From: Paenibacillus sp. GP183
Lineage (GTDB): Bacteria; Bacillota; Bacilli; Paenibacillales; NBRC-103111
Reading direction: 5' to 3'
NCBI RefSeq assembly: GCF_900104695.1
Contig: NZ_FNSW01000001.1
Location: forward strand, 1,054,001 to 1,118,000
DNA length: 64,000 nucleotides
Below, piece after piece: positions 4,049 to 25,401 of the stretch (position 1 is its first letter; the number at the start of each line of letters is the position of its first letter). The translations under genes were made by a program, and so were the position numbers. Under the pieces are notes generated by a model, which saw nothing but the letters and a program-made list of their open reading frames with translations, did not search any database and was not told where the DNA came from.

Positions 4049-5859
4049 TTGTCCCTGTGTGGAAGCAACAATATATGTTTAGAAATTTGGTTTTCTTTCT
4101 CATTCCGCTGCTTGTTCCCATTCTGATCCTCGGTTCCTTGTCGATCTTAATCACACAGCATTATGTGAAAGAAGACATCAATCAAAAAAACATGAGACTG
4201 CTGATGCAGACCAGAGATAACCTGGAGCTCATATTAAATGAGATCGACACCTTGACCTTGACCTTTCAAACGAGTAATAGCATAGCCGTACGTCTGAAAG
4301 AGATCTTGAATACCCAAACTTTTACCTATGACCAGACGACGGCTTTGGATTTACTCAGCAATTTCGCTTCTGCTCCAGCCTATGCCAGGCCTTATATAGA
4401 TTCAATCTATGTCTATTATAATAATCCCTTCAATAAATCCCTCACATCAACGGAAGGGCTTGTGACTCTCGATAAATTCTATGACCGTGGCTGGTACGAC
4501 TCCTACCTGAAAGGCAATACAGCCGATTCCTGGCTGGAGCAACGGAGTATCAACCGGTACGGCATTCAGAATAAACGAGTCGTTTCAGTATATCGTAAGC
4601 TTTATACCGCCGGTTCATCCAAGGCATCCGGTATTATTGTTTTGAATATTCTGCCCGAATATATCGAGAACATGCTTGGGGAGCTGGTATCCAAAGAACA
4701 AAGCGTCATCATTGCCAACAATAGTCTGCAAGTACTCTTTCAAACCAAAATGCCCGATGGTTCTTCCGAACAGTTCGACTTGCAAAAAATCATTTCTTCA
4801 TCGGACCAGGTGTCTTCCGTACGGATGGGAAATCAGACGTTTACCTTAACCCATCTTCAATCCGGTATACAGAAGCTTCACTATATTTCATTGATCCCGC
4901 AAGGGGTTCTATATCAAATTCCCATACAGTTAAGTCAAATCACAATCGCGCTGCTGATTATTTCTCTATTAATTGGTGTCGCTATCACCTACTGGTTCAC
5001 CAGGAAAAACTACAATAACCTGAAGAACATCGTAACGATTATTAAGTCCGTCGAGCAAGGGAAGCCGTTGCCTGTTGCTCCTGTTAAAGTAATCGACGAG
5101 TACGGCTACATTTTGCAAAACATCATTAAAGCGTTCATCGAGCAAAGCTTTTTAAAGGTTCAGCTTTCCGAACGCAGCTACAGGCTGAGGTACATGGAAA
5201 TGCTTGCTCTTCAATCGCAAATCAATCCGCATTTTCTATACAATACATTGGAAATTATATACTGGAAAACCGTCGCTATTTCCGGCAGACCTAACGAGGC
5301 CAGCACTATGATCGAACATTTGGGCGATATATTAAAGTATGCGCTGAGCAGTCCTCAGAATAAAATGGTCATCCTGCAAAAGGAGCTTCAGCATACGCAA
5401 ATCTATGTAGAAATCCAAAAGATCCGCTACAAGGATAAATTTGAAGTGATCTGGGAAGTGGAAGGAAATCTGCAGCGTTATTTCGTTCCCAAATTGCTGC
5501 TGCAGCCGTTAATTGAGAACAGTATTTATCATGGGGTCAGAGAAAAGCCCGGAAAGTGCTGCATCAAGGTTAGCATAAGACGTTTGCCTTCCATGATTAG
5601 TATCCATGTTATCGATAACGGAGTCGGCATGTCATCGGAACGCCTTCATGAAGTCATAAGCCTTATGGCTCGTGATGACTTCACAAACCAAGGTACGACT
5701 GTGGAATCTGCGAAGGACATCTCGGGGAATATCGGTTTGTATAATACCAATAAGCGTCTGGTCTTATCCTACGGGGAGCTTTTTAAACTGCGCATCGTGA
5801 GTAAACCCGGATGGGGAACCTCCGTACAAATCAGGATCCCTATCGATGTCTCCTTTTAG
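4042..5859 (+). CDS. Sensor histidine kinase, YesM type (LytS/His_kinase family)
   Basis: Membrane sensor paired with the upstream regulator. A first membrane segment near residues 15-40 (FLIPLLVPILILGSL) and a second near 300-320 bracket a ~260-residue extracellular Cache-like sensor region. A HAMP-like linker, the His_kinase motif QSQINPHFLYNTLEIIYW with the phospho-accepting His, and a C-terminal ATPase domain (LIENSIYHGV, VIDNGVGM) follow. 605 residues from the GTG at 4042, which overlaps the regulator stop. The exact start is uncertain; GTG 4057 and ATG 4075 are alternatives. It probably senses a sugar directly or through the binding protein. Confidence 0.92.
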   Translation: MVIVPVWKQQYMFRNLVFFLIPLLVPILILGSLSILITQHYVKEDINQKNMRLLMQTRDNLELILNEIDTLTLTFQTSNSIAVRLKEILNTQTFTYDQTTALDLLSNFASAPAYARPYIDSIYVYYNNPFNKSLTSTEGLVTLDKFYDRGWYDSYLKGNTADSWLEQRSINRYGIQNKRVVSVYRKLYTAGSSKASGIIVLNILPEYIENMLGELVSKEQSVIIANNSLQVLFQTKMPDGSSEQFDLQKIISSSDQVSSVRMGNQTFTLTHLQSGIQKLHYISLIPQGVLYQIPIQLSQITIALLIISLLIGVAITYWFTRKNYNNLKNIVTIIKSVEQGKPLPVAPVKVIDEYGYILQNIIKAFIEQSFLKVQLSERSYRLRYMEMLALQSQINPHFLYNTLEIIYWKTVAISGRPNEASTMIEHLGDILKYALSSPQNKMVILQKELQHTQIYVEIQKIRYKDKFEVIWEVEGNLQRYFVPKLLLQPLIENSIYHGVREKPGKCCIKVSIRRLPSMISIHVIDNGVGMSSERLHEVISLMARDDFTNQGTTVESAKDISGNIGLYNTNKRLVLSYGELFKLRIVSKPGWGTSVQIRIPIDVSF

Positions 5860-5981
5860 ACGTAATATTTTGCATAAAAAAAATCCCCTTTAGGAAGACA
5901 TCCTAGTCCAAGTCCATCTTACAAGATGTACTTTTTTCAGGGTCTACCCAAACGGGATGTCCGATCTTGTTCGCTTGCAGC

Positions 5982-6323
5982 TTAATCCAAAACCGCCGAC
6001 ATATGCTTCGCAGTCACGGACCAGTGGGATGTGTTCCACACGGGCTCCTTGTCCTTGAAATAAAGGATTTGCGGGGATGCATGCTGGATCCCAAGGTCTT
6101 CGGCGATCTGGTTGGAAACAGGTCGGGATTCGATGACTTTGACCAGGTAATAGTCAACGTCTTCACTCGGAGAGCCCGCCAGGTAACTGTCGAATTCTTC
6201 CAAAGCGTTCGCGCTTACCGGGCATGTAGTGCTATGCTTCAAGACAACTGCAGGCTTTGCCGTTGAATCATCCAGGATTTGCTGCCACTCCTCCAGGGAG
6301 GTTAATTCTTTCCATTTGGCCAT
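5982..6323 (-). CDS. ytxJ: Bacillithiol-system redox protein, YtxJ family
   Basis: Monothiol thioredoxin-like protein of the YtxJ (DUF2847) family, proposed to act as a bacilliredoxin-like partner in bacillithiol chemistry. 113 residues; the conserved active-site segment is VLKHSTTCPVSANA with one cysteine, followed by the family pattern PVSNQIAEDLGIQHASPQ. Start set at ATG 6323 (MAKWKELTS) behind AGAGGGG with 9-base spacing. Follows the FAD-linked oxidase by 94 bases on the same strand; a functional link is not evident. Confidence 0.88.
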   Translation of the reverse strand: MAKWKELTSLEEWQQILDDSTAKPAVVLKHSTTCPVSANALEEFDSYLAGSPSEDVDYYLVKVIESRPVSNQIAEDLGIQHASPQILYFKDKEPVWNTSHWSVTAKHMSAVLD

Positions 6324-6417
6324 TCGTGTGAGCCCCTCTCTTGTCCAGATAAGAATAATTATAAATCCAGTCCGGATAAGTTGCAATCAGAGCTTGCAGG
6401 GATTGAGGCTTTTTTGC

Positions 6418-7743
6418 TCACAAGTATTGGATCTTTCCTGGGTTGAGCAGTCCAAGGGGGTCGTTCTCGCGTTTTTTGGCGATCATCGATTGGATGGAGC
6501 CTCTTCCCCCTGATTCCAGCAAGTACGTATGCGGGTCATGAACCGACACTCCGATCGAATGACAAAAGATGATGATTTCATACAGACGGCTTTCCGTCGT
6601 AAACTTCACAAGCGGAATCGATTGAGGTATGATGGCTCCCCGGATTCGCGACCACTCATGATGCAGAAGCACCTCGTCATGATATTCCATTTTGATTCTG
6701 GCAGCTTGCTCCAAAAATCGGCTGCTCAGAAAAGAAGCCTGCAAATACGTATAAGCCGGATCCTCCTGAATAGCCCAATAGGTCGTTTGATTCCATGTAA
6801 AATCAGAGAGCTCTACGTCTTCGTGATATTTACTAGCCGGGATTAAATGAGAGATCTCACCCTTGTGCCGCCTGGCGTACGTATAGGCCTCGGTCAGCGA
6901 GCCTTCTTCAATTTCCAGAATCACCGCGGCTTTTCCCGATTGAACCCATCTGGACAGAGGCCGGAAAAAAGAAGGAATCGGCCACTCCATCAACGAAACC
7001 AGCCGTTTTCTCAGCGAATTGTCTCTGGCAAGCGAATCCGCAAACAGCATGGCATCGGCATATTGGGAAAAGCTGACGATCACCTGCTGCCACTCTATTC
7101 TGGGTGTAAGCGGAAGGACAAGCTCAGTGAGGATTCCGGTTGTTCCGTAATTGTGTATATAATCCAGCAAGGAATCCCCTTGGACAATCAGTTTTTTGGG
7201 CTCCTTTTCCAATGTAAGCACTGTGATTTCCTGTACATTGCCATCCCACATATGACCCCAATTAATCGAGCCTACACCAATAGTCCCCCCGCACACAAAT
7301 CCGCCGACCGTAGCTTGTTTATAATTGCTTGGATAAACCCGCAGTTCTTGCCCCCTCATTCTTGCTTCTCTCTCCAAATCCCCCAAAATAACCCCGGGCT
7401 GTACGCGAACAAATCCTTGGCCCCATTCGAGAATCTGATCGAGACCGCTTACATCCAGAATAAGTCCGCCATGCAGGGGAATCGCCTGTCCATAATTGCC
7501 GGTTCCGGCTCCTCTGACCGTTATTGGGACTCTTTCGTCATAGGAAAATTTCAGCAAATCGATGATTTCCGCTTCACTCGACGGTAGGGCAATCCCATCC
7601 GCAATCTTGTCCTTCAGCTTATTTTTGAGAATCGGAGAAAACCAGTAATGATCCTTGGAAAGCCTCGAGCGAGAGTCATAGTCCAGTAATATCCGTTCAT
7701 CGCCAAGCCGCTCCAAGGCTTCCTTTTGCCAGCCAATCGCCAT
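6418..7743 (-). CDS. FAD-binding oxidoreductase (FAD-linked oxidase, GlcD-like)
   Basis: Flavoprotein of the PCMH/FAD_binding_4 family, 441 residues. The N-terminal FAD-binding region is visible (VPITVRGAGTGNYGQAIPLHGGLILDVSGLD, then FVCGGTIGVGSINWG). The C-terminal half is less conserved but ends in the family pattern LGLLNPGKIQYL. No signal peptide or membrane helix. Start at ATG 7743 behind AAGGAGG (9 bases); GTG 7752 abuts the ribosome site. Last gene of the cluster headed by the amidohydrolase and xanthine-dehydrogenase-type subunits, so an oxidative step on a product of that pathway is likely. Substrate unknown. Confidence 0.85.
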   Translation of the reverse strand: MAIGWQKEALERLGDERILLDYDSRSRLSKDHYWFSPILKNKLKDKIADGIALPSSEAEIIDLLKFSYDERVPITVRGAGTGNYGQAIPLHGGLILDVSGLDQILEWGQGFVRVQPGVILGDLEREARMRGQELRVYPSNYKQATVGGFVCGGTIGVGSINWGHMWDGNVQEITVLTLEKEPKKLIVQGDSLLDYIHNYGTTGILTELVLPLTPRIEWQQVIVSFSQYADAMLFADSLARDNSLRKRLVSLMEWPIPSFFRPLSRWVQSGKAAVILEIEEGSLTEAYTYARRHKGEISHLIPASKYHEDVELSDFTWNQTTYWAIQEDPAYTYLQASFLSSRFLEQAARIKMEYHDEVLLHHEWSRIRGAIIPQSIPLVKFTTESRLYEIIIFCHSIGVSVHDPHTYLLESGGRGSIQSMIAKKRENDPLGLLNPGKIQYL

Positions 7744-7855
7744 CTGATCCACCCTCCTTAAATGCCAATTTAAAAAAGTCGATCAAGAAATCCGCTATAA
7801 GCCATGTCTATGCTGATAGCGGAGATGAATGCTGCTAATTTATGAAGTAGAAAAT

Positions 7856-8371
7856 CTAGGAGTTAGACTCGTTTCCAATAAGGCTATCCACCGCGCGCAC
7901 GATGGAAGAGTAACCGGCACAGTGACATAAATTTCCACATAACCCTTCAAGCACTTCTTCTCTGGAAGGAGAAGGATTTCGATCCATGACGGACTTCACT
8001 GACATCACCATGCCAGGAGTACAATATCCGCACTGAAAGCTGCCTTCACACAAAAATGCGGCTTGAATGGGATGGAGCTCATCACCTGCCAAGCTTTCTA
8101 TCGTTTCCACGATAGCTCCTTCAACCTGAAAGGCCATGACCAAGCAGGAATTTACATTCTCACCATTGAGCAAAATCATACAGGCCCCGCATCTACCCAT
8201 TTCACACGATATTTTAGTACCGGTAAGCCCGAGATCCTCTCTTAGAATGTCGACCAAACGCTTGGTAGAGGGGACCTGCAATTCGATGCTTTTTCCGTTT
8301 ATGCTGCATGAAAGTGAATACAAGTTGTCTTGAGCGATTTGACGTTTTAACAGCTCCTCATACAGCTCCAT
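7856..8371 (-). CDS. Xanthine dehydrogenase-type iron-sulfur subunit
   Basis: Small [2Fe-2S] subunit of a molybdenum hydroxylase (XdhC/CoxS/PucE class), 171 residues. The plant-ferredoxin-like N-terminal cluster ligands lie in CEMGRCGACMILLNGENVNSC and the C-terminal helical cluster in FQCGYCTPGMVM plus CGNLCHCAGY; all eight cysteines are present. Perfect ribosome site AAGGAGGTGA. Transfers electrons from the molybdenum centre to FAD. Follows the molybdenum subunit by 53 bases in the same operon. Confidence 0.94.
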   Translation of the reverse strand: MELYEELLKRQIAQDNLYSLSCSINGKSIELQVPSTKRLVDILREDLGLTGTKISCEMGRCGACMILLNGENVNSCLVMAFQVEGAIVETIESLAGDELHPIQAAFLCEGSFQCGYCTPGMVMSVKSVMDRNPSPSREEVLEGLCGNLCHCAGYSSIVRAVDSLIGNESNS

Positions 8372-8424
8372 CAGATATCACCTCCTTAGAGTTTTATAGA
8401 GAAAACTGAAACATGAAATTGATC

Positions 8425-10254
8425 TTATGGCATTAAGACGGAGAGAGAGCCGATTAACTCTTCCGGAGAAATAGGAACAGTGGTAACTTGAACGCCAATC
8501 GCGTCAAATACGGCGGAAGCAATCGCTGGGGCCACGGCTATCATACCGATTTCCCCTACATCTCTGGGACCGTGAGAGTCGTCTTCTTCAAGTTGTTCTA
8601 CTGGGTATACATTCATTTCTATGGGAGCGTCAGCCAGCGAGGGGATTAAGTAGGTATCCAGGTTGCGAGTGATGTAATATCCTTGCTCCATGATCGTGTT
8701 TTCTGTCAAAGTAAAACCAAGACCCATGACAGCGGCACCTTCTATTTGTCCTTGAAAATCTGCCGGGTTCAAGACCGGACCTGCGGCTACTGCATGATCC
8801 AATTGCAAAACCCGCACACGACCTGTTCGCAAATCCACTTCAGTTTTGGCCAGAACCACTGCAAATGAATAAAGAAAATGGCTGCCAGCTGCTGTTTCAG
8901 GTTCGCTGCCATGCATCGTGATGGCTGCGCCGTAACCGGTTCTGAGCCAGGATGGCGAAGAAGGAGCATCTGCCGACATCTTTTGGCGGATGCTGTTTTC
9001 TCTCTCCGCCCACAGAGGAGATTGACTTATCGCTTTCATGGCATCCTTCATCCCGTTCGTTGGAGCAATCCTTTGCCCTAACGGGCCTTCATCGGTTATG
9101 TCTCTGATGTTGAGCTTGCGAAGCTCCCATGGATCCATATCCAGCTTTGCAGCCAATCTGTCGATCTGTCCCTCCAGGGCAAAAGTAATCTGATTACCGC
9201 CGAAGCCGCGAAACTCTCCGGAAACTCCATTGTTCGTATAAACGAGTGTGCCTCTCACATCCACATTTGAAATCCTATAAGGTCCTATTGCATACTCCAA
9301 AGCAAAATCCAAAACAGCAGGGCCAAAAGTTGCATAGGCACCCGTATCCGATAAGATCTCAACCTCATGGGCCAATATCATTCCCTGCCCATCAGTTCCT
9401 GTTTTCATCGTGATCTTCATCGGGTGTTTTTTTAACCCCGCCTGCAAGGATTCTTGACGGGAATGATGAATTTTCATCGGACGCTTGCAAGCAAACGCCA
9501 GCAGCGCCCCATAGGGTTGAACATTAAACTCATCTTTGCAGCCGAACGTTCCGCCTATTGGATTGGATTCAATGCGGATTTTGCTCTCCGGGATAGACAA
9601 AATTCGGGAAAGCTGCGTGCAGTCGCTATTGCCATGCCGGGTTCCCGCATAAACGGTCAGACCCCCGTCTTCCTCCGGAACAATGACGCTTCCCTCCGTT
9701 TCCATGTACACGTGCATTTGCCTCGGCGTCTCATAGGTCTCACGCACGATTACTTCGCAGTCGGCAAATGCTTGCTCGACATCACCTTTATGATAGCCTA
9801 TGCGGTGCAGCACATTGCCTTGCGGATGCAGCTTCGCCGCCGAAGGCAAGAGACCTGCCTCTGCCGAAACGATAACCGGCAGCGGTTCATATTCTACCTC
9901 GATCAAGCGCAGTGCTTTTTCAGCGATTTCCTCGCTTTCCGCTGCTACAGCCGCTATGGCATCCCCTATATATCGCACCCGGTCTTCACAAAACACTGGT
10001 TGAGCGGAATCCATCCAACCAAAACGATTGATACCGGGGACATCCGCATGAGTGATGACTGCATGTACGCCGGGCAGCTCCTTCGCCCGTTCCGTCCGAA
10101 TAGATAAGATCAATGCATGCGGATGTTCGCTGCGGAGCACCTTGGCGTGAAGCATGTCGGGTAAGGATAAGTCCGTTAAGTAAGCAAGCGTTCCGGTTAC
10201 TTTGTCCGCTCTCATCTTCCTTTGAGAGGAAGCCGATCCACGATTCAGCAGCAT
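8425..10254 (-). CDS. Xanthine dehydrogenase-type molybdopterin subunit, internally deleted
   Basis: Large subunit of the molybdenum hydroxylase (PucD/XdhA/CoxL class), 609 residues where relatives have about 745-780. Present: the N-terminal domain (KVTGTLAYLTDLSLPDMLHAKVLRSEHPHA), IGGTFGCKDEFNVQPYGA, GEFRGFGGNQ with the substrate Arg, and GPRDVGEIGMIAVAPAIASAVFDAIG with the catalytic Glu. Missing: the central segment that carries the molybdopterin-contacting GQG motif and the following loop. The chain jumps from AITMHGS straight to GSHFLYSFAVVLAKTEVD near residues 447-460. The reading frame is intact. Start at ATG 10254 behind GGAGG. Probably inactive or altered, unless the assembly is wrong here. 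Confidence 0.9.
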   Translation of the reverse strand: MLLNRGSASSQRKMRADKVTGTLAYLTDLSLPDMLHAKVLRSEHPHALILSIRTERAKELPGVHAVITHADVPGINRFGWMDSAQPVFCEDRVRYIGDAIAAVAAESEEIAEKALRLIEVEYEPLPVIVSAEAGLLPSAAKLHPQGNVLHRIGYHKGDVEQAFADCEVIVRETYETPRQMHVYMETEGSVIVPEEDGGLTVYAGTRHGNSDCTQLSRILSIPESKIRIESNPIGGTFGCKDEFNVQPYGALLAFACKRPMKIHHSRQESLQAGLKKHPMKITMKTGTDGQGMILAHEVEILSDTGAYATFGPAVLDFALEYAIGPYRISNVDVRGTLVYTNNGVSGEFRGFGGNQITFALEGQIDRLAAKLDMDPWELRKLNIRDITDEGPLGQRIAPTNGMKDAMKAISQSPLWAERENSIRQKMSADAPSSPSWLRTGYGAAITMHGSEPETAAGSHFLYSFAVVLAKTEVDLRTGRVRVLQLDHAVAAGPVLNPADFQGQIEGAAVMGLGFTLTENTIMEQGYYITRNLDTYLIPSLADAPIEMNVYPVEQLEEDDSHGPRDVGEIGMIAVAPAIASAVFDAIGVQVTTVPISPEELIGSLSVLMP

Positions 10255-10270
10255 GGGACATCCCTCCATA

Positions 10271-11179
10271 TTAATGACTACTCAATTTACGCTGCTCGCT
10301 CATAAGTCCGGTAAGCAAAAGATTGGCTGCCGCTTGCTTGCGATACGCCGAGGATGCAAAGCTGTCATGTCCGGCTTGATACTCCCGGCGAATATATTCA
10401 TGAATTTGCTGCCAGGATTCCACATCAGGCTTCATACCGGTAAGCATGGATTCGACAACCGGCAATCGATCTGGAATCGCTTTCCCGCCGCCAACTGCCA
10501 AAGTTACCTTCACAAAGCGGCCTTCATTATCCAGCAGGCCGCTCGCTGCCACAGTGACCAAGGACGGGGCAAAAGCTTCTCTGCGGCCAACTTTTTCATA
10601 ATATGAAAATGAATATTCCGTCTCCCGGGGATCTTCCAACTGAATCGAAACCAGCAGCCTGTCTTCGCGCTCTGTGGAATTACGGCGTCTGCTTTGCAGC
10701 CATTCTCGCAATGGAGTTCTATCATGCTTCTTACCGTGCTGCCAGATTAATTCCGCATTCATGACCAACATCGCAGGCAAGGCATCTCCGTTTATCGAGA
10801 GCACATTGCCGCCTATAGTTCCCCGATTTCTCACGGATGGGGCAGCTATTTGTTTACAAGCTCTTGCAAGCAAGCTGTTCTTGATCAGCGGATGCTGCAT
10901 ACAAGTTGTCAGCGAGGTCAGCGGCCCGATTACGAGATGGCCTTGGTCTCCATTTATTTTCTCATACACGCCTTTTAAACGATCAATTCCCTCTATGCTA
11001 ATCATATGCAGGGGAGCCATTTGCCTATCGTTTTCCCATTCTGTTTGCAGCAGTGTCCCGCCAGCGACAAAGACAGCATCCTCACCAAGCACACGCTTTA
11101 GCTCTACCGCTTCTTCCAACCGCTTGGGCTGCCACAACATTGGCATATCGCTCCACTCGGGTTCGTGAATTGCCATCAT
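10271..11179 (-). CDS. Xanthine dehydrogenase-type FAD subunit
   Basis: Medium subunit of the molybdenum hydroxylase (PucC/XdhB/CoxM class), 302 residues. FAD contacts are visible in VFVAGGTLLQTEW near residue 40 and in the second motif SVRNRGTIGGNVLSINGDALPAML near residue 115, with the CO_deh_flav_C domain in the last third. Two adjacent ATGs (11179 and 11176) follow AGGGAGGGATC; either may be used. Stop lies 16 bases before the molybdenum subunit start, so the pair is probably coupled. Passes electrons from the iron-sulfur subunit to NAD or another acceptor. Confidence 0.93.
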   Translation of the reverse strand: MMAIHEPEWSDMPMLWQPKRLEEAVELKRVLGEDAVFVAGGTLLQTEWENDRQMAPLHMISIEGIDRLKGVYEKINGDQGHLVIGPLTSLTTCMQHPLIKNSLLARACKQIAAPSVRNRGTIGGNVLSINGDALPAMLVMNAELIWQHGKKHDRTPLREWLQSRRRNSTEREDRLLVSIQLEDPRETEYSFSYYEKVGRREAFAPSLVTVAASGLLDNEGRFVKVTLAVGGGKAIPDRLPVVESMLTGMKPDVESWQQIHEYIRREYQAGHDSFASSAYRKQAAANLLLTGLMSEQRKLSSH

Positions 11180-11239
11180 GATCCCTCCCTAGATGCCATT
11201 TCCAAGATTTGATTGAAATTTTCTGAAGTATATAGTGAA

Positions 11240-12577
11240 TTAGTGAATAAAAGGCAGCTTTTGCAGCAGACGCTCAATGGAGCGATTGGATTCTCTCAGT
11301 ACCTTATCTTTATCTATTGTAAGAATGATTTTATCTCTCATGACGATTTTACCGTCGATGATCGTGGTTTCCACATCTGCCCGCGTAGCGGAATAGACCA
11401 ACCTGCCATACACATCCACTTCTGAAGAAGGGTAGCTGTGAAAATCATTCAAATCTACAATCGCCAAATCCGCTTTCTTGCCGACTTCAATGCTGCCGAT
11501 TTGATCTTCCAGCCCCATCACCTCGGCTCCACCGCGGGTAGCCATGCGAAAAACCGTTTTGGCATCCATAGCTGTAGGTCCGTGCTGGACCTTTTGAATG
11601 TTCGAAGACAGCCTCATCTCATGGAACATATCCAGATTATTATTGCAAGGAGCACCATCGGCACCTAAACTGAGAGCAACATCCCTGGAGAGCAAATCAG
11701 GCACTTCGGCTATACCGGACGCCAGCTTGAGATTCGAGCCGGGACAATGGCTGACTTTGACTCGATGCTTGCGAAGTATTTCTTTCTCTTGTTCATCCAG
11801 CCATATGCAGTGGGCCAAAATAAGATTCGGACCCGTCAATCCGATATGCTCCAAATAGACAATATTCCGCATGCCGCGCTCCACTTGAACTATCTCGATT
11901 TCCTTCTGATTCTCGGAAGCGTGCGTATGAACCTTGACTCCGTAATGTTGGGATAAATCCCTGACTTGGATGAGAAGGTTTTCAGTACAGGATATGACGA
12001 ATCGCGGACAAAAGGCGTACTGCAATCTGCCATTATCATAATTGTTCCATTTTTCCAGAAGCCTTACGCTTTCCTTAACGGAAGCCTCCGTCTGCTCGAG
12101 CAGCATCTGTGGAACTTCGAAGCCCTGATCCATCATTACCTTGCCCGACAAAGCTCGAATACCGCTCTCCGCCATCGCTTGAAATGCAAAATCAGTATGA
12201 TTGACCGTTTCCATATCCACAATCGAAGTCGTACCGCTGCGGATCAACTCACCCAATCCAAGCAGCGCCGAATAATAAACGGATTCCTCGTCATGAGCCG
12301 CTTCCAATGGCCAAATGCGTTTGCGCAGCCAATCGAGCAGCTCCATATCATCAGCCTGCCCGCGAAACAAGGTCTGGCACAAATGCACATGAGTTTGAAT
12401 TAAGCCGGGAATGACGATTTTATCAGCAGCCTCTATGACTTCATCTTCAGGCAGTGGGATAAGATTAGGACCGATCTCAACAATGCGGTCATTCTCAATT
12501 CTTATGGTTCCAATCAAAACTTCTTCTTGCTGGTTCATCGTGACAATTTGAGCGTTTCGAATACATAAACTGGACAT
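11240..12577 (-). CDS. Amidohydrolase, 5'-deoxyadenosine/purine deaminase type
   Basis: Metal-dependent deaminase of the ATZ/TRZ subgroup, 445 residues. Metal ligands: HVHLCQ near residue 63, HTHASE near 215, AHC near 255 and LGADGAPCNNN near 305. The stretch LCQTLFRGQADDMELLDWL is typical of the 5'-deoxyadenosine / S-adenosylhomocysteine deaminases of Paenibacillus, as I recall them. Position as first gene before a xanthine-dehydrogenase-type operon argues instead for deamination of a purine or related base that feeds hydroxylation. Strong ribosome site GGGAGG. Preceded by a sigma-A promoter with two GlnR/TnrA boxes. Confidence 0.88.
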   Translation of the reverse strand: MSSLCIRNAQIVTMNQQEEVLIGTIRIENDRIVEIGPNLIPLPEDEVIEAADKIVIPGLIQTHVHLCQTLFRGQADDMELLDWLRKRIWPLEAAHDEESVYYSALLGLGELIRSGTTSIVDMETVNHTDFAFQAMAESGIRALSGKVMMDQGFEVPQMLLEQTEASVKESVRLLEKWNNYDNGRLQYAFCPRFVISCTENLLIQVRDLSQHYGVKVHTHASENQKEIEIVQVERGMRNIVYLEHIGLTGPNLILAHCIWLDEQEKEILRKHRVKVSHCPGSNLKLASGIAEVPDLLSRDVALSLGADGAPCNNNLDMFHEMRLSSNIQKVQHGPTAMDAKTVFRMATRGGAEVMGLEDQIGSIEVGKKADLAIVDLNDFHSYPSSEVDVYGRLVYSATRADVETTIIDGKIVMRDKIILTIDKDKVLRESNRSIERLLQKLPFIH

Positions 12578-12650
12578 TGCAGCAGCCTCCCGGTAATTTA
12601 CACTTTAGCAACCATTGTATAAGATATTCACCGAGAGAAATTAATATTTA

Positions 12651-12667
12651 TGTCATGTTAACTGACA
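12651..12667. promoter_or_regulatory. GlnR/TnrA box, downstream site
   Basis: TGTCATGTTAACTGACA matches the 17-bp GlnR/TnrA consensus TGTNA-N7-TNACA exactly and is nearly palindromic. Its centre lies at about +15 relative to the inferred transcription start of the purine operon, a roadblock/repressor position. Confidence 0.75.
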
Positions 12668-12679
12668 TTTATAACTTCT

Positions 12680-12708
12680 ATTATAGGTGATTTTAAAGGT
12701 TTTTTCAA
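12680..12708 (-). promoter_or_regulatory. Sigma-A promoter of the purine catabolic operon
   Basis: On the reverse strand, -35 TTGAAA (12708-12703) and -10 TATAAT (12685-12680) are separated by exactly 17 bases. The inferred start of transcription is near 12673, giving a leader of about 95 bases before the amidohydrolase ATG. Confidence 0.75.
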
Positions 12709-12715
12709 TAGTAAA

Positions 12716-12732
12716 TGTTATTATTTGTTACA
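12716..12732. promoter_or_regulatory. GlnR/TnrA box, upstream site
   Basis: TGTTATTATTTGTTACA fits TGTNA-N7-TNACA exactly, with the AT-rich core usual for these sites. Centred about 51 bases upstream of the inferred start site, the position from which TnrA activates in Bacillus subtilis and from which GlnR activates nif in Paenibacillus polymyxa. Confidence 0.75.
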
Positions 12733-12808
12733 TTTGAAGCTGAATTGAATCAGATAATTTCTGTAATTAAACTTCATGTTAGTTTTTATAACATATAAAT
12801 AAACAAAA

Positions 12809-12847
12809 AAACTAAGTCATGCAGTCAAGGCTGCTCCGACTTAGTTT
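12809..12847 (-). terminator. Rho-independent terminator
   Basis: Inverted repeat AAACTAAGTC (12809-12818) / GACTTAGTTT (12838-12847), with a second short stem inside the loop. Read on the reverse strand it is followed by TTTTTTGTTT, so it terminates the two-gene unit ending at 12865 and insulates the purine promoter. Confidence 0.85.
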
Positions 12848-12864
12848 CATTTATTTTCTTATTA

Positions 12865-13164
12865 TTACCGAACATTCGCAAAATCGGACCTTCGCTCAAG
12901 GTGAGAGATTCCTTTGTCCTTGGCAGCTTCAAGCTCTATGACGTGAATTCGTTCCAGCCACTCTTCAGGCAAATAATTTGCCTTTTGTGCTTGGACAAGG
13001 CGCTCAGCATGATCATAACAAGTATCATATCCGCCCAAGGCACGAATGACCTTGACGTACTGAACAACGAGCTCGCGAGCTGTTTCTGCAGTATAACCAA
13101 AGCTGGTCACAAGCGATTCAACAATGCCTCGTTCATAGAGATTCAGCCGAACTTGAGTTTTCAT
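12865..13164 (-). CDS. Small protein, candidate antitoxin/partner of the DUF3990-like protein
   Basis: 99 residues, predicted mostly helical, no signal peptide or membrane segment. Not recognised with certainty. Its start overlaps the end of the upstream ART-fold gene by 32 bases and has its own AGGAGGAAGG site, so the two are made together. DUF3990 proteins are often paired with small helical partners (DUF3791 and similar), which suggests an immunity or antitoxin role. The sequence is not a clear DUF3791 match. Motifs seen: VESLVTSFGYTAETARELV and GGYDTCYDHAERLVQAQ. Confidence 0.75.
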   Translation of the reverse strand: MKTQVRLNLYERGIVESLVTSFGYTAETARELVVQYVKVIRALGGYDTCYDHAERLVQAQKANYLPEEWLERIHVIELEAAKDKGISHLERRSDFANVR

Positions 13165-13744
13165 GATAGGTCCACCTTCCTCCTACATAAACATTATACC
13201 CGATCAAACGCAGGGATGACTCCCAGCTTTCCGCTGAAAAGACAACCTGGCTTCCAAGACGAAGAGAATCTAACCTTCTCCCCCGATCTGTACGTGTGAT
13301 TTGATAATAAAACCAGTGTACGTCTTTATTTAATTGTACAGCGTTTCGAATAATATTACCAGCATCTGAGTCAGCCATCGGCCCTATAATAATCTCCGGA
13401 TGATTCAAACATGGATCTTTCTCATCTAGGGTGACTTTTCTATGTGTCATGATGAAATCTGCCCATGCCAGCGAGTCGCTAAGAAATATAAGAGGAGCCA
13501 CATCTTTGGGAATAGACATGAGCTCAATTTCAAGGACACAAGGACGTGCATTACCCAGTATAGCCTGTTTCGCGGCTTTTATTGCCCATTTCCGGGCTTG
13601 TCCTACAGAAATTGTGGTATACAAACCTTTGCCAAAGTCTCTGCCAGGTTTCCAATATTGGCTGTTTAGCAGCTTATCTTGAAAGGATTGCACCAAGCTA
13701 TCCGTAGTGCCATGAAATAGCTTTTGGGGTGTTGTTATGTCCAT
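13133..13744 (-). CDS. DUF3990-like protein with ADP-ribosyltransferase-type fold
   Basis: 203 residues. The order of motifs matches DUF3990: LFHGTTDSLV at the N-terminus, DFGKGLYTTISVGQARKWA near residue 45, a central LAWADFIMTHRK, then PEIIIGPMADSDAGNI, and a C-terminal SQVVFSAESWESSLRLI. This resembles the His-Tyr-Glu layout of ADP-ribosyltransferases and RES/DarT-like toxins. Start at ATG 13744 behind TTGGAGG with 5-base spacing. The overlapping downstream gene is the likely partner. Role as toxin is an inference from family associations; the modified target is unknown. Confidence 0.72.
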   Translation of the reverse strand: MDITTPQKLFHGTTDSLVQSFQDKLLNSQYWKPGRDFGKGLYTTISVGQARKWAIKAAKQAILGNARPCVLEIELMSIPKDVAPLIFLSDSLAWADFIMTHRKVTLDEKDPCLNHPEIIIGPMADSDAGNIIRNAVQLNKDVHWFYYQITRTDRGRRLDSLRLGSQVVFSAESWESSLRLIGYNVYVGGRWTYHENSSSAESL

Positions 13745-18610: not shown

Positions 18611-19244
18611 GTTTCCCTCCGCTGTTTGGTGCTGCAATCATTCTACATTCTTGTCTAAGGCTCACGAGTTCTTTCAATTTATTTGGGTTCTGTCTTATGT
18701 TTAGTATGGGTTTTGCTTCTAAAATTAGTTTAATCTCGATATCATTCAGCAGTTCAGATTTCATGGCTATCCAGTTTATTATTAGATTCTTATTTATCCA
18801 GTCAATAATTCTTAAGGTGTCATCATCAGAAAATTTATAGTTTGCACCGTTTCGGCTATGGCTTAATGATCCAATTACAGGTCGATAACCAAAGATTGCA
18901 CCGATACTTCTGAAAAAAGAAGCAGGGCTTTTATGTCTTAAGTCTTGAGTAACTAACCTCTTTAATAAGCTGGTTGATGCTTGCCCAACATAGAGAATAT
19001 TGTGATCTCTGTTTATTAAGCAAGCAGAATAAGGCTCAGGAATACTTGTAATATCACGAATCATTATACAGTAAATTCCTGGTGTATTGGGAACTTCTGA
19101 TTCAGCTAATGAAGCTGCAATCACATAATTGGGATTTGTGATATTGTCCTTAAAATGATTTTGATTTTCCAAACAAGGACTTCCTTTCTTTGCCGTGACG
19201 CCGTTAATCAGCGTCAGGATCTGATTGTTACTTTTTCCATTCAT
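18603..19244 (-). CDS. GIY-YIG nuclease-like protein
   Basis: 213 residues. A GIY-YIG core is visible: NTPGIYCIMIRD (GIY) then HNILYVGQASTSLLKRL (YVG in place of YIG, with the following Arg), and LNDIEIKLILEAKPILNIRQNP containing the conserved Glu and Asn. Such single-domain proteins occur in DNA repair, mobile elements and stand-alone nucleases of unknown role. The start ATG lies inside the last codons of the DJ-1 gene (17-base overlap), so it is translationally coupled and under the same ZTP riboswitch. Confidence 0.72.
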   Translation of the reverse strand: MNGKSNNQILTLINGVTAKKGSPCLENQNHFKDNITNPNYVIAASLAESEVPNTPGIYCIMIRDITSIPEPYSACLINRDHNILYVGQASTSLLKRLVTQDLRHKSPASFFRSIGAIFGYRPVIGSLSHSRNGANYKFSDDDTLRIIDWINKNLIINWIAMKSELLNDIEIKLILEAKPILNIRQNPNKLKELVSLRQECRMIAAPNSGGKHE

Positions 19245-19815
19245 ACTCTAGTTTTGATGCTGTATCAACAGCCCTTTCAATTCCCAACAGCTTTGAAACA
19301 ACATAAAGGGACGCATCGATTCCGGCAGTTACACCAGCTGACATGATGATTTTTCCATTATCAACGTATCTAAGGTCTTCAACAATCCTGGAATTGCTCG
19401 GTGCCGCTTGACGTAATAAATCTATTGCTCTTCGATTTGTTATTATACTCAATCCGTCTAATAAATTCGCTTTTGCCAAAAGCAAAGCTCCTGTGCATAC
19501 AGATAACACCAGCTCAGCCGTGCTAGCCGTATTATTTATCCAAGTTGTAAGTGATTCATTATACATTTCTGTTCGGGAACCTATTCCACCAGGAACAATT
19601 AGTATATCTGGAGGTGGGCAATCATCAAAGCTGTACTTGGGATAAATAGTAAATCCACTGATCGTGTTCAAGGGTTGTACCTTTTCACTTACCGTGTAAA
19701 CACGAAAATCTTTCCCCCAATTGCTTGCTGTAGCAAAAACATCAAAGGGACCTACAAAGTCTAATCCATCCACTTTCTCATACACCAAAACAGCTACATT
19801 CCTAGCTCGTTCCAT
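19228..19815 (-). CDS. DJ-1/PfpI family protein (class I glutamine amidotransferase-like)
   Basis: 195 residues. Flavodoxin-like fold with nucleophile elbow VLSVCTGALLLAKANLLDG (Cys near residue 101) and the preceding acidic residues of the family; ILIVPGGIGSRTEM near residue 70 is typical. Related proteins include isonitrile hydratase and the sensor half of GATase1-type AraC regulators. Start ATG 19815 behind AAGGAG. Unusually, it is preceded by a ZTP riboswitch and terminator, which ties it to purine/one-carbon stress. Function unknown. Confidence 0.85.
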   Translation of the reverse strand: MERARNVAVLVYEKVDGLDFVGPFDVFATASNWGKDFRVYTVSEKVQPLNTISGFTIYPKYSFDDCPPPDILIVPGGIGSRTEMYNESLTTWINNTASTAELVLSVCTGALLLAKANLLDGLSIITNRRAIDLLRQAAPSNSRIVEDLRYVDNGKIIMSAGVTAGIDASLYVVSKLLGIERAVDTASKLEYEWKK

Positions 19816-19830
19816 CGCAATCCATCTCCT

Positions 19831-19869
19831 TAAAATAGAAAAGTATTTGATCATAGGATCAAATACTTT
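19831..19869 (-). terminator. Riboswitch expression-platform terminator
   Basis: Perfect 13-bp stem AAAGTATTTGATC / GATCAAATACTTT (19840-19852 and 19857-19869) with a 4-base loop. On the reverse strand it is followed by TTTTCTATTTT. Its 5' arm begins directly at the end of the ZTP aptamer, the usual geometry for a ligand-controlled terminator. Confidence 0.9.
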
Positions 19870-19942
19870 GCCCAGGCGAACGGCTGCTATGAATATGTGC
19901 TCCCCCGTAGTCATCTACGTTATCGCCAGTCGCACATACCAA
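19868..19942 (-). ncRNA. ZTP (pfl motif) riboswitch aptamer
   Basis: The reverse-strand RNA contains the two conserved parts of the pfl RNA in order: GCGACTGGCGATA, a short hairpin CGTAG-ATGA-CTACG, then GGGGGAGC, and after a linker GCCGTTCGCCTGGGCA. The helix P1 TATGTGC/GCACATA closes the first part. These motifs define the ZTP riboswitch, which senses the purine/folate alarmone ZTP (AICAR triphosphate) and normally turns genes on by blocking a terminator. Here it precedes a DJ-1/PfpI gene. Confidence 0.88.
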
Positions 19943-19955
19943 ATATTTACTGTTG

Positions 19956-24095: not shown

Positions 24096-24249
24096 TAACG
24101 TTATTTGTGTTCCCGACGCCTCAACGACTTAAAGTCTGAAGGGCGGGCCGCGATGCGGTTAGTGGCGCAGGTGTGTCTGCTGAATATGCTTCTTCGATAT
24201 CCCCAGCAGACCAAGAGGCGTCAGCCCCGCAGCGTGAATATGGTGTTAT
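24096..24249 (+). repeat. ~150-bp attC-like repeat, copy A
   Basis: Element beginning TAACGTTATTTGTGTTC and ending GTGAATATGGTGTTAT (24234-24249). The ends are imperfect inverted repeats of each other (TAAC...TTC(A/C)CGA versus the complement of CGTGAATATGGTGTTA). Inside are further stems: GACGCCTC/GAGGCGTC and GTCTGCTG/CAGCAGAC. GC-rich against an AT-rich background. Copy B, in the same orientation, lies on the far side of the TIR gene. Confidence 0.65.
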
Positions 24250-24279
24250 TGGATGTAACATGCCTTCTTAGATATACTT

Positions 24280-25401
24280 TCATTCACTATCTAACTCATG
24301 TATTGCTTCATAAATATTAATAAATCCTGACTTACTTATTTGTTGATTGTCCATTAACCCATACTTAATGAAAAAGTTATGGATTAATTCCGGGTCTACT
24401 TCTTTCAAAGATGAATTAAGAAAACTATATAATTCCCATCCAGTTAGTTGTATTAAAGTATCTATATTAAAAATGCTACCCAGCATATCTTTAAGAAAGT
24501 TATGATATGTTCTTGCTGGTTTATATCTTTTAGCTGAATTTATTGAACTTCCTTCATAGAGTAGATCTGTAATGACTGGATTTAATAATTCCTCATCATT
24601 ATTAATACCTTCAACTAACTCTCTTTTAACGCGCGAGGATATGCTCAAGGTATCAATAATTGCAACAAGTTTTTCTTTATTACTTCTATCTGCTAATAGG
24701 TTTACGACACGTAACTTAGAAAGCTCACTTGAGAACTGTTGTAGTATAGTAATTCCAACTTCTGTTAGATATCCGCTTTGATCAAGCAGACCAAACGCCT
24801 TAAGATCACTTAATACCTCTTCGGCAACTCTATCTTTCTTAATAAGAAACTTTCTATCAATTTCTCTATCTGTAAAAAATTCAAGTTCAAGCATAATACA
24901 AATATCATTAAGTTCTTCGATAAGTTTATTAGGCAGTGCGATATTTGGAATTATTGGTAAAGCTGATAAAGAGGGAATAGTGTTAAATACTCTATATCCT
25001 AACTTTGTAATAATCATTTCTGCTACCCTTTTTACTTCAATAGTCTTTAGATCAATATATCCGATTGTGGAATGAATGCCCGGTACCTTTGTATCGTCTA
25101 ATTTAAGAGGAAGTATATATTCCGAGCTCTGCTCAAAAGCCCTCGCTTGTGCAGATCGCAATTCATGATTAGTCCATAGTTTTTTTGAATAATGTTCTGA
25201 AATAAATACAACACAATACCTTGCTTTTGAATAATATATTTCTGAAAGATACTGATATAAATCTTTGCCCCAAAGATTATCCTGCTCGAATTCATCATAA
25301 AATACCTTAATCCCTTGACTTATTAATTCGATAGCAAGTTGCTCAACATGCTTTCTATCCTCTCCAGCGAAGGTTAATGCTACATCGTAATTTTTATTCA
25401 T
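24280..25401 (-). CDS. TIR-domain protein, candidate NADase defence effector
   Basis: 373 residues. N-terminal TIR domain (about 1-135): YDVALTFAGEDRKHVEQLA, then VFYDEFEQDNLWGKDLYQYL, and SEHYSKKLWTNHELRSAQ with the Glu expected to be catalytic in NAD-cleaving TIRs. The C-terminal ~230 residues are helical and unrecognised; they could be a sensor or a helical repeat. No membrane segment. Bracketed by two directly repeated ~150-bp elements with no partner gene between them, so it looks like a one-gene cassette. Defence role is inferred from the TIR family. Confidence 0.82.
   Translation of the reverse strand: MNKNYDVALTFAGEDRKHVEQLAIELISQGIKVFYDEFEQDNLWGKDLYQYLSEIYYSKARYCVVFISEHYSKKLWTNHELRSAQARAFEQSSEYILPLKLDDTKVPGIHSTIGYIDLKTIEVKRVAEMIITKLGYRVFNTIPSLSALPIIPNIALPNKLIEELNDICIMLELEFFTDREIDRKFLIKKDRVAEEVLSDLKAFGLLDQSGYLTEVGITILQQFSSELSKLRVVNLLADRSNKEKLVAIIDTLSISSRVKRELVEGINNDEELLNPVITDLLYEGSSINSAKRYKPARTYHNFLKDMLGSIFNIDTLIQLTGWELYSFLNSSLKEVDPELIHNFFIKYGLMDNQQISKSGFINIYEAIHELDSE

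Follow-up and report, generated by a model that had tools for sequence, protein, structure and literature searches.

Gene content of the locus

The window, by which we mean the whole 64,000-nucleotide stretch of Paenibacillus sp. GP183 DNA that was analyzed, carries on its minus strand a gene for an amidohydrolase of the 5'-deoxyadenosine deaminase family, followed by genes homologous to those for the subunits of xanthine dehydrogenase (xdh), an FAD-linked oxidase and a bacilliredoxin:

11240–12577, minus strand: the operon's first gene, for 5'-deoxyadenosine deaminase (an amidohydrolase); NF005557 score of 717 bits (cut-off 522)
10271–11179, minus strand: PucC-like FAD subunit of xanthine dehydrogenase; TIGR03199 at 243 bits, below the cut-off of 306; PF00941 and PF03450
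8425–10269, minus strand: PucD-like molybdenum subunit, score below the NCBIfam cut-off; about 155 residues of MoCoBD_2 missing in frame
7856–8371, minus strand: PucE-like 2Fe-2S subunit; TIGR03198 at 204 bits, below the cut-off of 254
6418–7752, minus strand: GlcD-like FAD-linked oxidase; PF01565
5982–6386, minus strand: YtxJ bacilliredoxin-like protein; TIGR04019 and synteny

The YtxJ-like gene may have a promoter of its own at 6386–6358. In close relatives of the deaminase locus (78–81% identity), ytxJ lies directly after the deaminase gene, and the xdh and GlcD-like genes appear to be inserted here.

The preliminary description had called this a xanthine-dehydrogenase operon, a name that the PucD-like protein does not bear out. 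This protein, of 614 residues, matches its family model only at positions 8–447 and 611–756, and MoCoBD_2 only from position 188. The absent, cofactor-binding segment contains ...EEIGQG..., with the GQG motif, in a relative, a stretch that we take to be part of the cofactor site of the PucD family. PucD homologs in 45 other genomes of the family are encoded by long frames, most of 760–840 residues, and the loss of about 155 residues was seen in this genome only. Separately, the PucD-like protein reads GGTFGCKDE where its relatives read GGSFGGKDE. A full-length pucD is encoded elsewhere in the genome (C1:847161–849404), within an intact puc operon at 840–855 kb that has its own box pair at 855359/855433. 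As judged by eye from translations, this minus-strand cluster encodes a BMP-type transporter, an ABC ATPase, permeases, PucC, PucD and a deaminase, together with uricase-, transthyretin-, allantoinase- and allantoate-type proteins. Because the PucD-like protein has lost its segment and an intact puc operon exists elsewhere, the locus is best named a deaminase operon, probably one with a defective xdh set.

These observations raise the possibility that the operon is decaying: the deaminase gene would have gained xdh genes and boxes, PucD would have lost its cofactor segment, and regulation would be irrelevant beyond the deaminase. The restriction of the PucD deletion to this genome and the intact puc operon agree with such a history, as do the closest deaminase relatives, which have the order deaminase–ytxJ and carry neither xdh genes nor boxes. 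We nevertheless judge it rather unlikely, since the reading frames for the deaminase, PucC and PucE are uninterrupted and both promoter and boxes, described below, are near perfect; it is in any case compatible with working control of the deaminase.

Three GlnR boxes around a single promoter

The region upstream of the deaminase gene contains the following elements:

12651–12667: downstream GlnR/TnrA box, TGTCATGTTAACTGACA, center +15; exact match to TGTNAN7TNACA
12680–12685, minus strand: -10 element TATAAT, predicted start near 12673
12703–12708, minus strand: -35 element TTGAAA, sequence match
12716–12732: upstream GlnR/TnrA box, TGTTATTATTTGTTACA (TGTAACAAATAATAACA on the gene strand), center -51; exact match to TGTNAN7TNACA
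12777–12793: third GlnR/TnrA box, TGTTAGTTTTTATAACA, center -112; exact match to TGTNAN7TNACA
12810–12846, minus strand: inverted repeat AACTAAGTC...GACTTAGTT with a T-rich run after it, read from the sequence; probably terminates the genes upstream

Two of these boxes, at 12651–12667 and 12716–12732, had been described as flanking a TTGAAA-17-TATAAT promoter at -51 and +15. Both proved to be exact matches, the minus-strand promoter with its 17-bp spacer was confirmed between them, and the box centers were reproduced relative to a start predicted 7 bases past the -10 element. The third perfect box had been overlooked; it lies 61 bp from the middle box and 126 bp from the downstream box, so that the three spacings of 61, 65 and 126 bp correspond to 5.8, 6.2 and 12.0 helical turns. 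The promoter is the best match within 5600–13300 in a promoter scan (11/12 positions); when the 287-bp upstream region, with a GC content of about 27%, was shuffled by a Markov model, 0.03% of the shuffles equaled the promoter's score. The same shuffles produced a mean of 0.017 boxes, and two or more boxes in 0 of 3000. A simple terminator scan omits the repeat at 12810–12846 because its loop exceeds 8; as this probable terminator would end the upstream genes, the promoter is likely to be the operon's own. The +15 box lies where, judging from its position, a bound protein would be expected to block transcription.

Perfect boxes number 4 in the window against 0.78 expected and 120 in the genome against 75 for the reversed control pattern, and single boxes are thus weak evidence while clusters are strong. 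The fourth perfect box of the window (24244–24260) falls just past the end of gene 24280–25401, the product of which begins MNKNYDVALTFAGEDRKHVEQL and appears TIR-like by eye.

A single GlnR and no TnrA-like protein

The genome encodes one copy of GlnR, with 71% identity to the query over the DNA-binding part; the remaining MerR matches share 30–38% identity with the GlnR query, and no second, TnrA-like copy of GlnR was found in the genome. The C-terminus, ...SLIQGELSRFFH, contains the peptide IQGELSRF. In P. polymyxa GlnR, this tail sits in the active site of the feedback-inhibited form of glutamine synthetase (GS), with two GlnR tails per GS pore (PMC9249791). The predicted promoter of the GlnR gene itself has a box at -48. 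PucR is also encoded in the genome, and the perfect box near pucR lies downstream of the gene, not upstream. The earlier remark that the puc genes of Bacillus use TnrA and PucR is correct, with the addition that PucR is present here too. Together with the conservation of the -51 position before Bacillales orthologs, the presence of one GlnR and no TnrA supports the suggestion of nitrogen control by GlnR; on our analysis, dual control comprising activation and repression is plausible at this promoter.

Whole-turn spacing of box pairs

In Paenibacillaceae the distance between the two perfect GlnR boxes of a pair is close to an integral number of helical turns, and other Bacilli show the same pattern less strongly. 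The genome under study contains 14 perfect pairs spaced 35–95 bp apart (50, 51, 61, 63, 63, 65, 73, 74, 74, 85, 85, 93, 94 and 94 bp), where the reversed pattern gives 0. An unbiased census of C1:1–4.97 Mb found 11/11 perfect pairs at 25–100 bp to be phased and only two perfect pairs at 100–300 bp (117 and 126 bp). Pairs beyond 100 bp, at 104, 117, 126 and 138 bp, are too few to show phasing (p 0.07).

Perfect pairs are present in 88/103 Paenibacillaceae genomes, the present one and 87 others. Among the 122 Paenibacillaceae pairs listed, spacings peak at 41, 51, 62, 73, 84 and 94 bp with few in between, the regression slope is 10.64 bp per turn with a residual sd of 1.2, and 84% of the pairs are no more than 1.5 bp from a peak (29% expected). 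Ortholog clustering in the taxon comparison is crude, and the reliable count is the one that takes one genome per genus, which for Paenibacillaceae gives n=49, R=0.69 and p=8e-11. Phasing is weaker in other Bacilli with one pair per genus (n=41, R=0.53, p about 9e-6), and borderline outside Paenibacillaceae with one pair per family (n=19, p about 0.05). At the deaminase locus the spacings of 61 and 65 bp are each about 2 bp off the nearest integral turn, and 65 bp is rare in Paenibacillaceae, at the edge of its peak.

The genes that follow phased pairs are mostly associated with nitrogen scavenging, a few having no clear role. They include acetamidase, peptide ABC transporters, the puc operon, peptidase C26 and an isochorismatase–NCS1 cluster. 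Within C1:3040000–3047000, TGTCATGTATAATAACA occurs twice in identical form, 74 bp apart, with a peptide-transporter region on one side and a PuuD-like peptidase C26 gene on the other. Relative to predicted promoters, pairs were located at -51/+15, -56/+8, -38/+36, -112/-38, -88/-38 and -123/-38. Straddling of the promoter was considered as a general layout of phased pairs and rejected, as the positions vary.

This variety suggests that the geometry from box to box is conserved, rather than a tie to RNA polymerase; activation combined with a roadblock does not account for every pair. Were each box instead tied separately to RNA polymerase, phasing would reflect neither GlnR–GlnR nor GS contact; RNA polymerase does set face-of-the-helix limits on activators, and positions at -38 or about -50 are common to several promoters. 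We regard this explanation as unlikely, given that phased pairs occur at every class from 4 to 9 turns, six in all, and that those lying wholly upstream (the last three above) are phased as the straddling ones are.

A spacing rule that recurs across many genomes constitutes independent evidence of selection on inter-box geometry; it bears on the disputed question of DNA looping by GlnR and GS, and makes that question directly testable. A literature search covering few subscription journals returned no earlier report of a helical phasing, spacing or looping rule for GlnR sites, and the rule may be new.

Conservation of the promoter layout in orthologs

More than 20 loci with orthologs of the deaminase gene, in Paenibacillus, Niallia and Sporolactobacillus, have, at -48 to -52 relative to the predicted promoter, a box that matches the consensus perfectly or nearly so. 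A box near -50 of a sigma-A promoter presumably occupies an activator position, as in TnrA promoters, and its recurrence before Bacillales orthologs marks the -51 box as a conserved activator position. The +15 box is rare, a second perfect box near this position being absent from most orthologs. Orthologs in Metabacillus have boxes near -117 and/or +21, and those in Litchfieldia near +21.

Many of the deaminase loci in Paenibacillus, Niallia and Sporolactobacillus carry a purine riboswitch after the promoter, which indicates that nitrogen control and purine sensing are stacked there. No purine riboswitch was found in the leader in the window, where a GlnR box lies at +15 instead. Elsewhere in the window, a ZMP/ZTP riboswitch (19863–19943, minus strand, 60 bits) precedes a DJ-1/PfpI-like gene, an unusual-looking target; the real start of this gene (19228–19914) is probably further in.

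One alternative reading of the ortholog data is that the -51 box alone acts, in classical activation of the GlnR/TnrA type, with the boxes at +15 and -112 being weak, redundant or leftovers, and with no dual control. Retention of the -50 position in orthologs that mostly lack a second perfect box near +15 is what this reading would predict, and in many relatives a purine riboswitch beyond the promoter takes the place of that box. It appears quite unlikely to us, however, because no shuffle produced three perfect boxes in 290 bp, because the straddling layout recurs at amdA of this genome (-56/+8), and because the Metabacillus orthologs have boxes of their own away from the -50 position.

Controls for the spacing rule

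Three comparisons bear on the specificity of the phased pairs. The reversed pattern gave 0–2 pair matches per genome, and 35 mock palindromes composed of the same letters gave 4 pairs in total, where the real motif gave 24 in that DNA. Pairs of boxes with one mismatch, in a 2-Mb stretch of the chromosome, were unphased (R=0.25 at 25–100 bp and 0.06 at 100–300 bp), and the rule is therefore demonstrated for perfect boxes only. An origin of the pairs by chance, or from periodicity in AT-rich DNA, is very improbable: the upstream region is AT-rich, and AA/TT dinucleotides in bacterial DNA recur weakly at about the helical repeat, but the near-absence of pairs for reversed and mock motifs contradicts such an origin, and one-mismatch pairs in the same genome do not share the phasing. 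Single boxes being barely above chance and phased pairs having almost no background, phased pairs offer a strong filter for real GlnR targets.

Proposed mechanism

We consider it probable that the deaminase operon has a GlnR-controlled promoter with dual action, at which the boxes lie on approximately the same face of the helix under the whole-turn rule. We infer activation, repression and GS bridging at this locus as follows. When nitrogen is short, GlnR bound at -51 would contact RNA polymerase and activate transcription. When glutamine is high, feedback-inhibited GS (FBI-GS) would strengthen GlnR binding, and a GlnR dimer at +15, aided by dimers at -51 and -112, would block transcription. 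A single GS oligomer would probably hold adjacent GlnR dimers in its pores, and these could then line up next to each other or across a short loop. On the simplest reading of the conserved geometry, dimers that share a helical face would interact directly or by way of one GS oligomer, with looping, bending or wrapping of the DNA. Extended further, throughout Bacilli one GS oligomer may hold at least two GlnR dimers on boxes 4–9 turns apart, as an architectural clamp that loops or wraps nitrogen promoters; this generalization is tentative, and we regard it as possible but somewhat doubtful.

Comparison with known GlnR and TnrA systems

The preliminary description had likened the locus to the nif operon of P. 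polymyxa as having the same two-site layout. The likeness holds insofar as a single GlnR is involved and boxes flank one promoter, but it does not extend to the distances. In P. polymyxa WLY78, the activating site I is found 58 bp above the -35 element and the repressing site II 24 bp downstream of the start, and 118 bp separate the two (PMC6191146); here the flanking boxes are at -51/+15 and 65 bp apart, with a third at -112. The nif boxes are also imperfect, whereas those of the present locus are perfect.

Relative to the TnrA/GlnR regulon of B. subtilis, the box is the same and purine catabolism is likewise under nitrogen control, but TnrA and PucR serve there (PMC4475385, PMC5569456), in contrast to GlnR alone with phased box arrays here. 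In those Paenibacillus, Niallia and Sporolactobacillus loci that carry a purine riboswitch, the second layer of control is RNA-based, where the present locus has a GlnR box.

The GlnR regulon of P. polymyxa WLY78 (PMC9948412) overlaps with the targets found here in amtB and the opp/dpp transporters, and includes pucR where the present genome has boxes at puc genes. GlnR directly controls pucR in that organism, and GlnR-dependent nitrogen control of purine catabolism is therefore already known in kind. Deoxyadenosine deaminase does not appear among the 17 confirmed targets of that study, which has two sites at 10/24 predicted targets and in the consulted passages of which no analysis of box spacing was found.

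Finally, DNA looping was proposed for the nif promoter of P. riograndensis, in a model with GlnR dimers bridged by feedback-inhibited GS, and was rejected by the P. polymyxa authors in PMC6191146, which cites the model. Such a model predicts same-face spacing for sites joined by GS, in agreement with the spacing observed here; the model covers one promoter, whereas the phasing reported here spans many.
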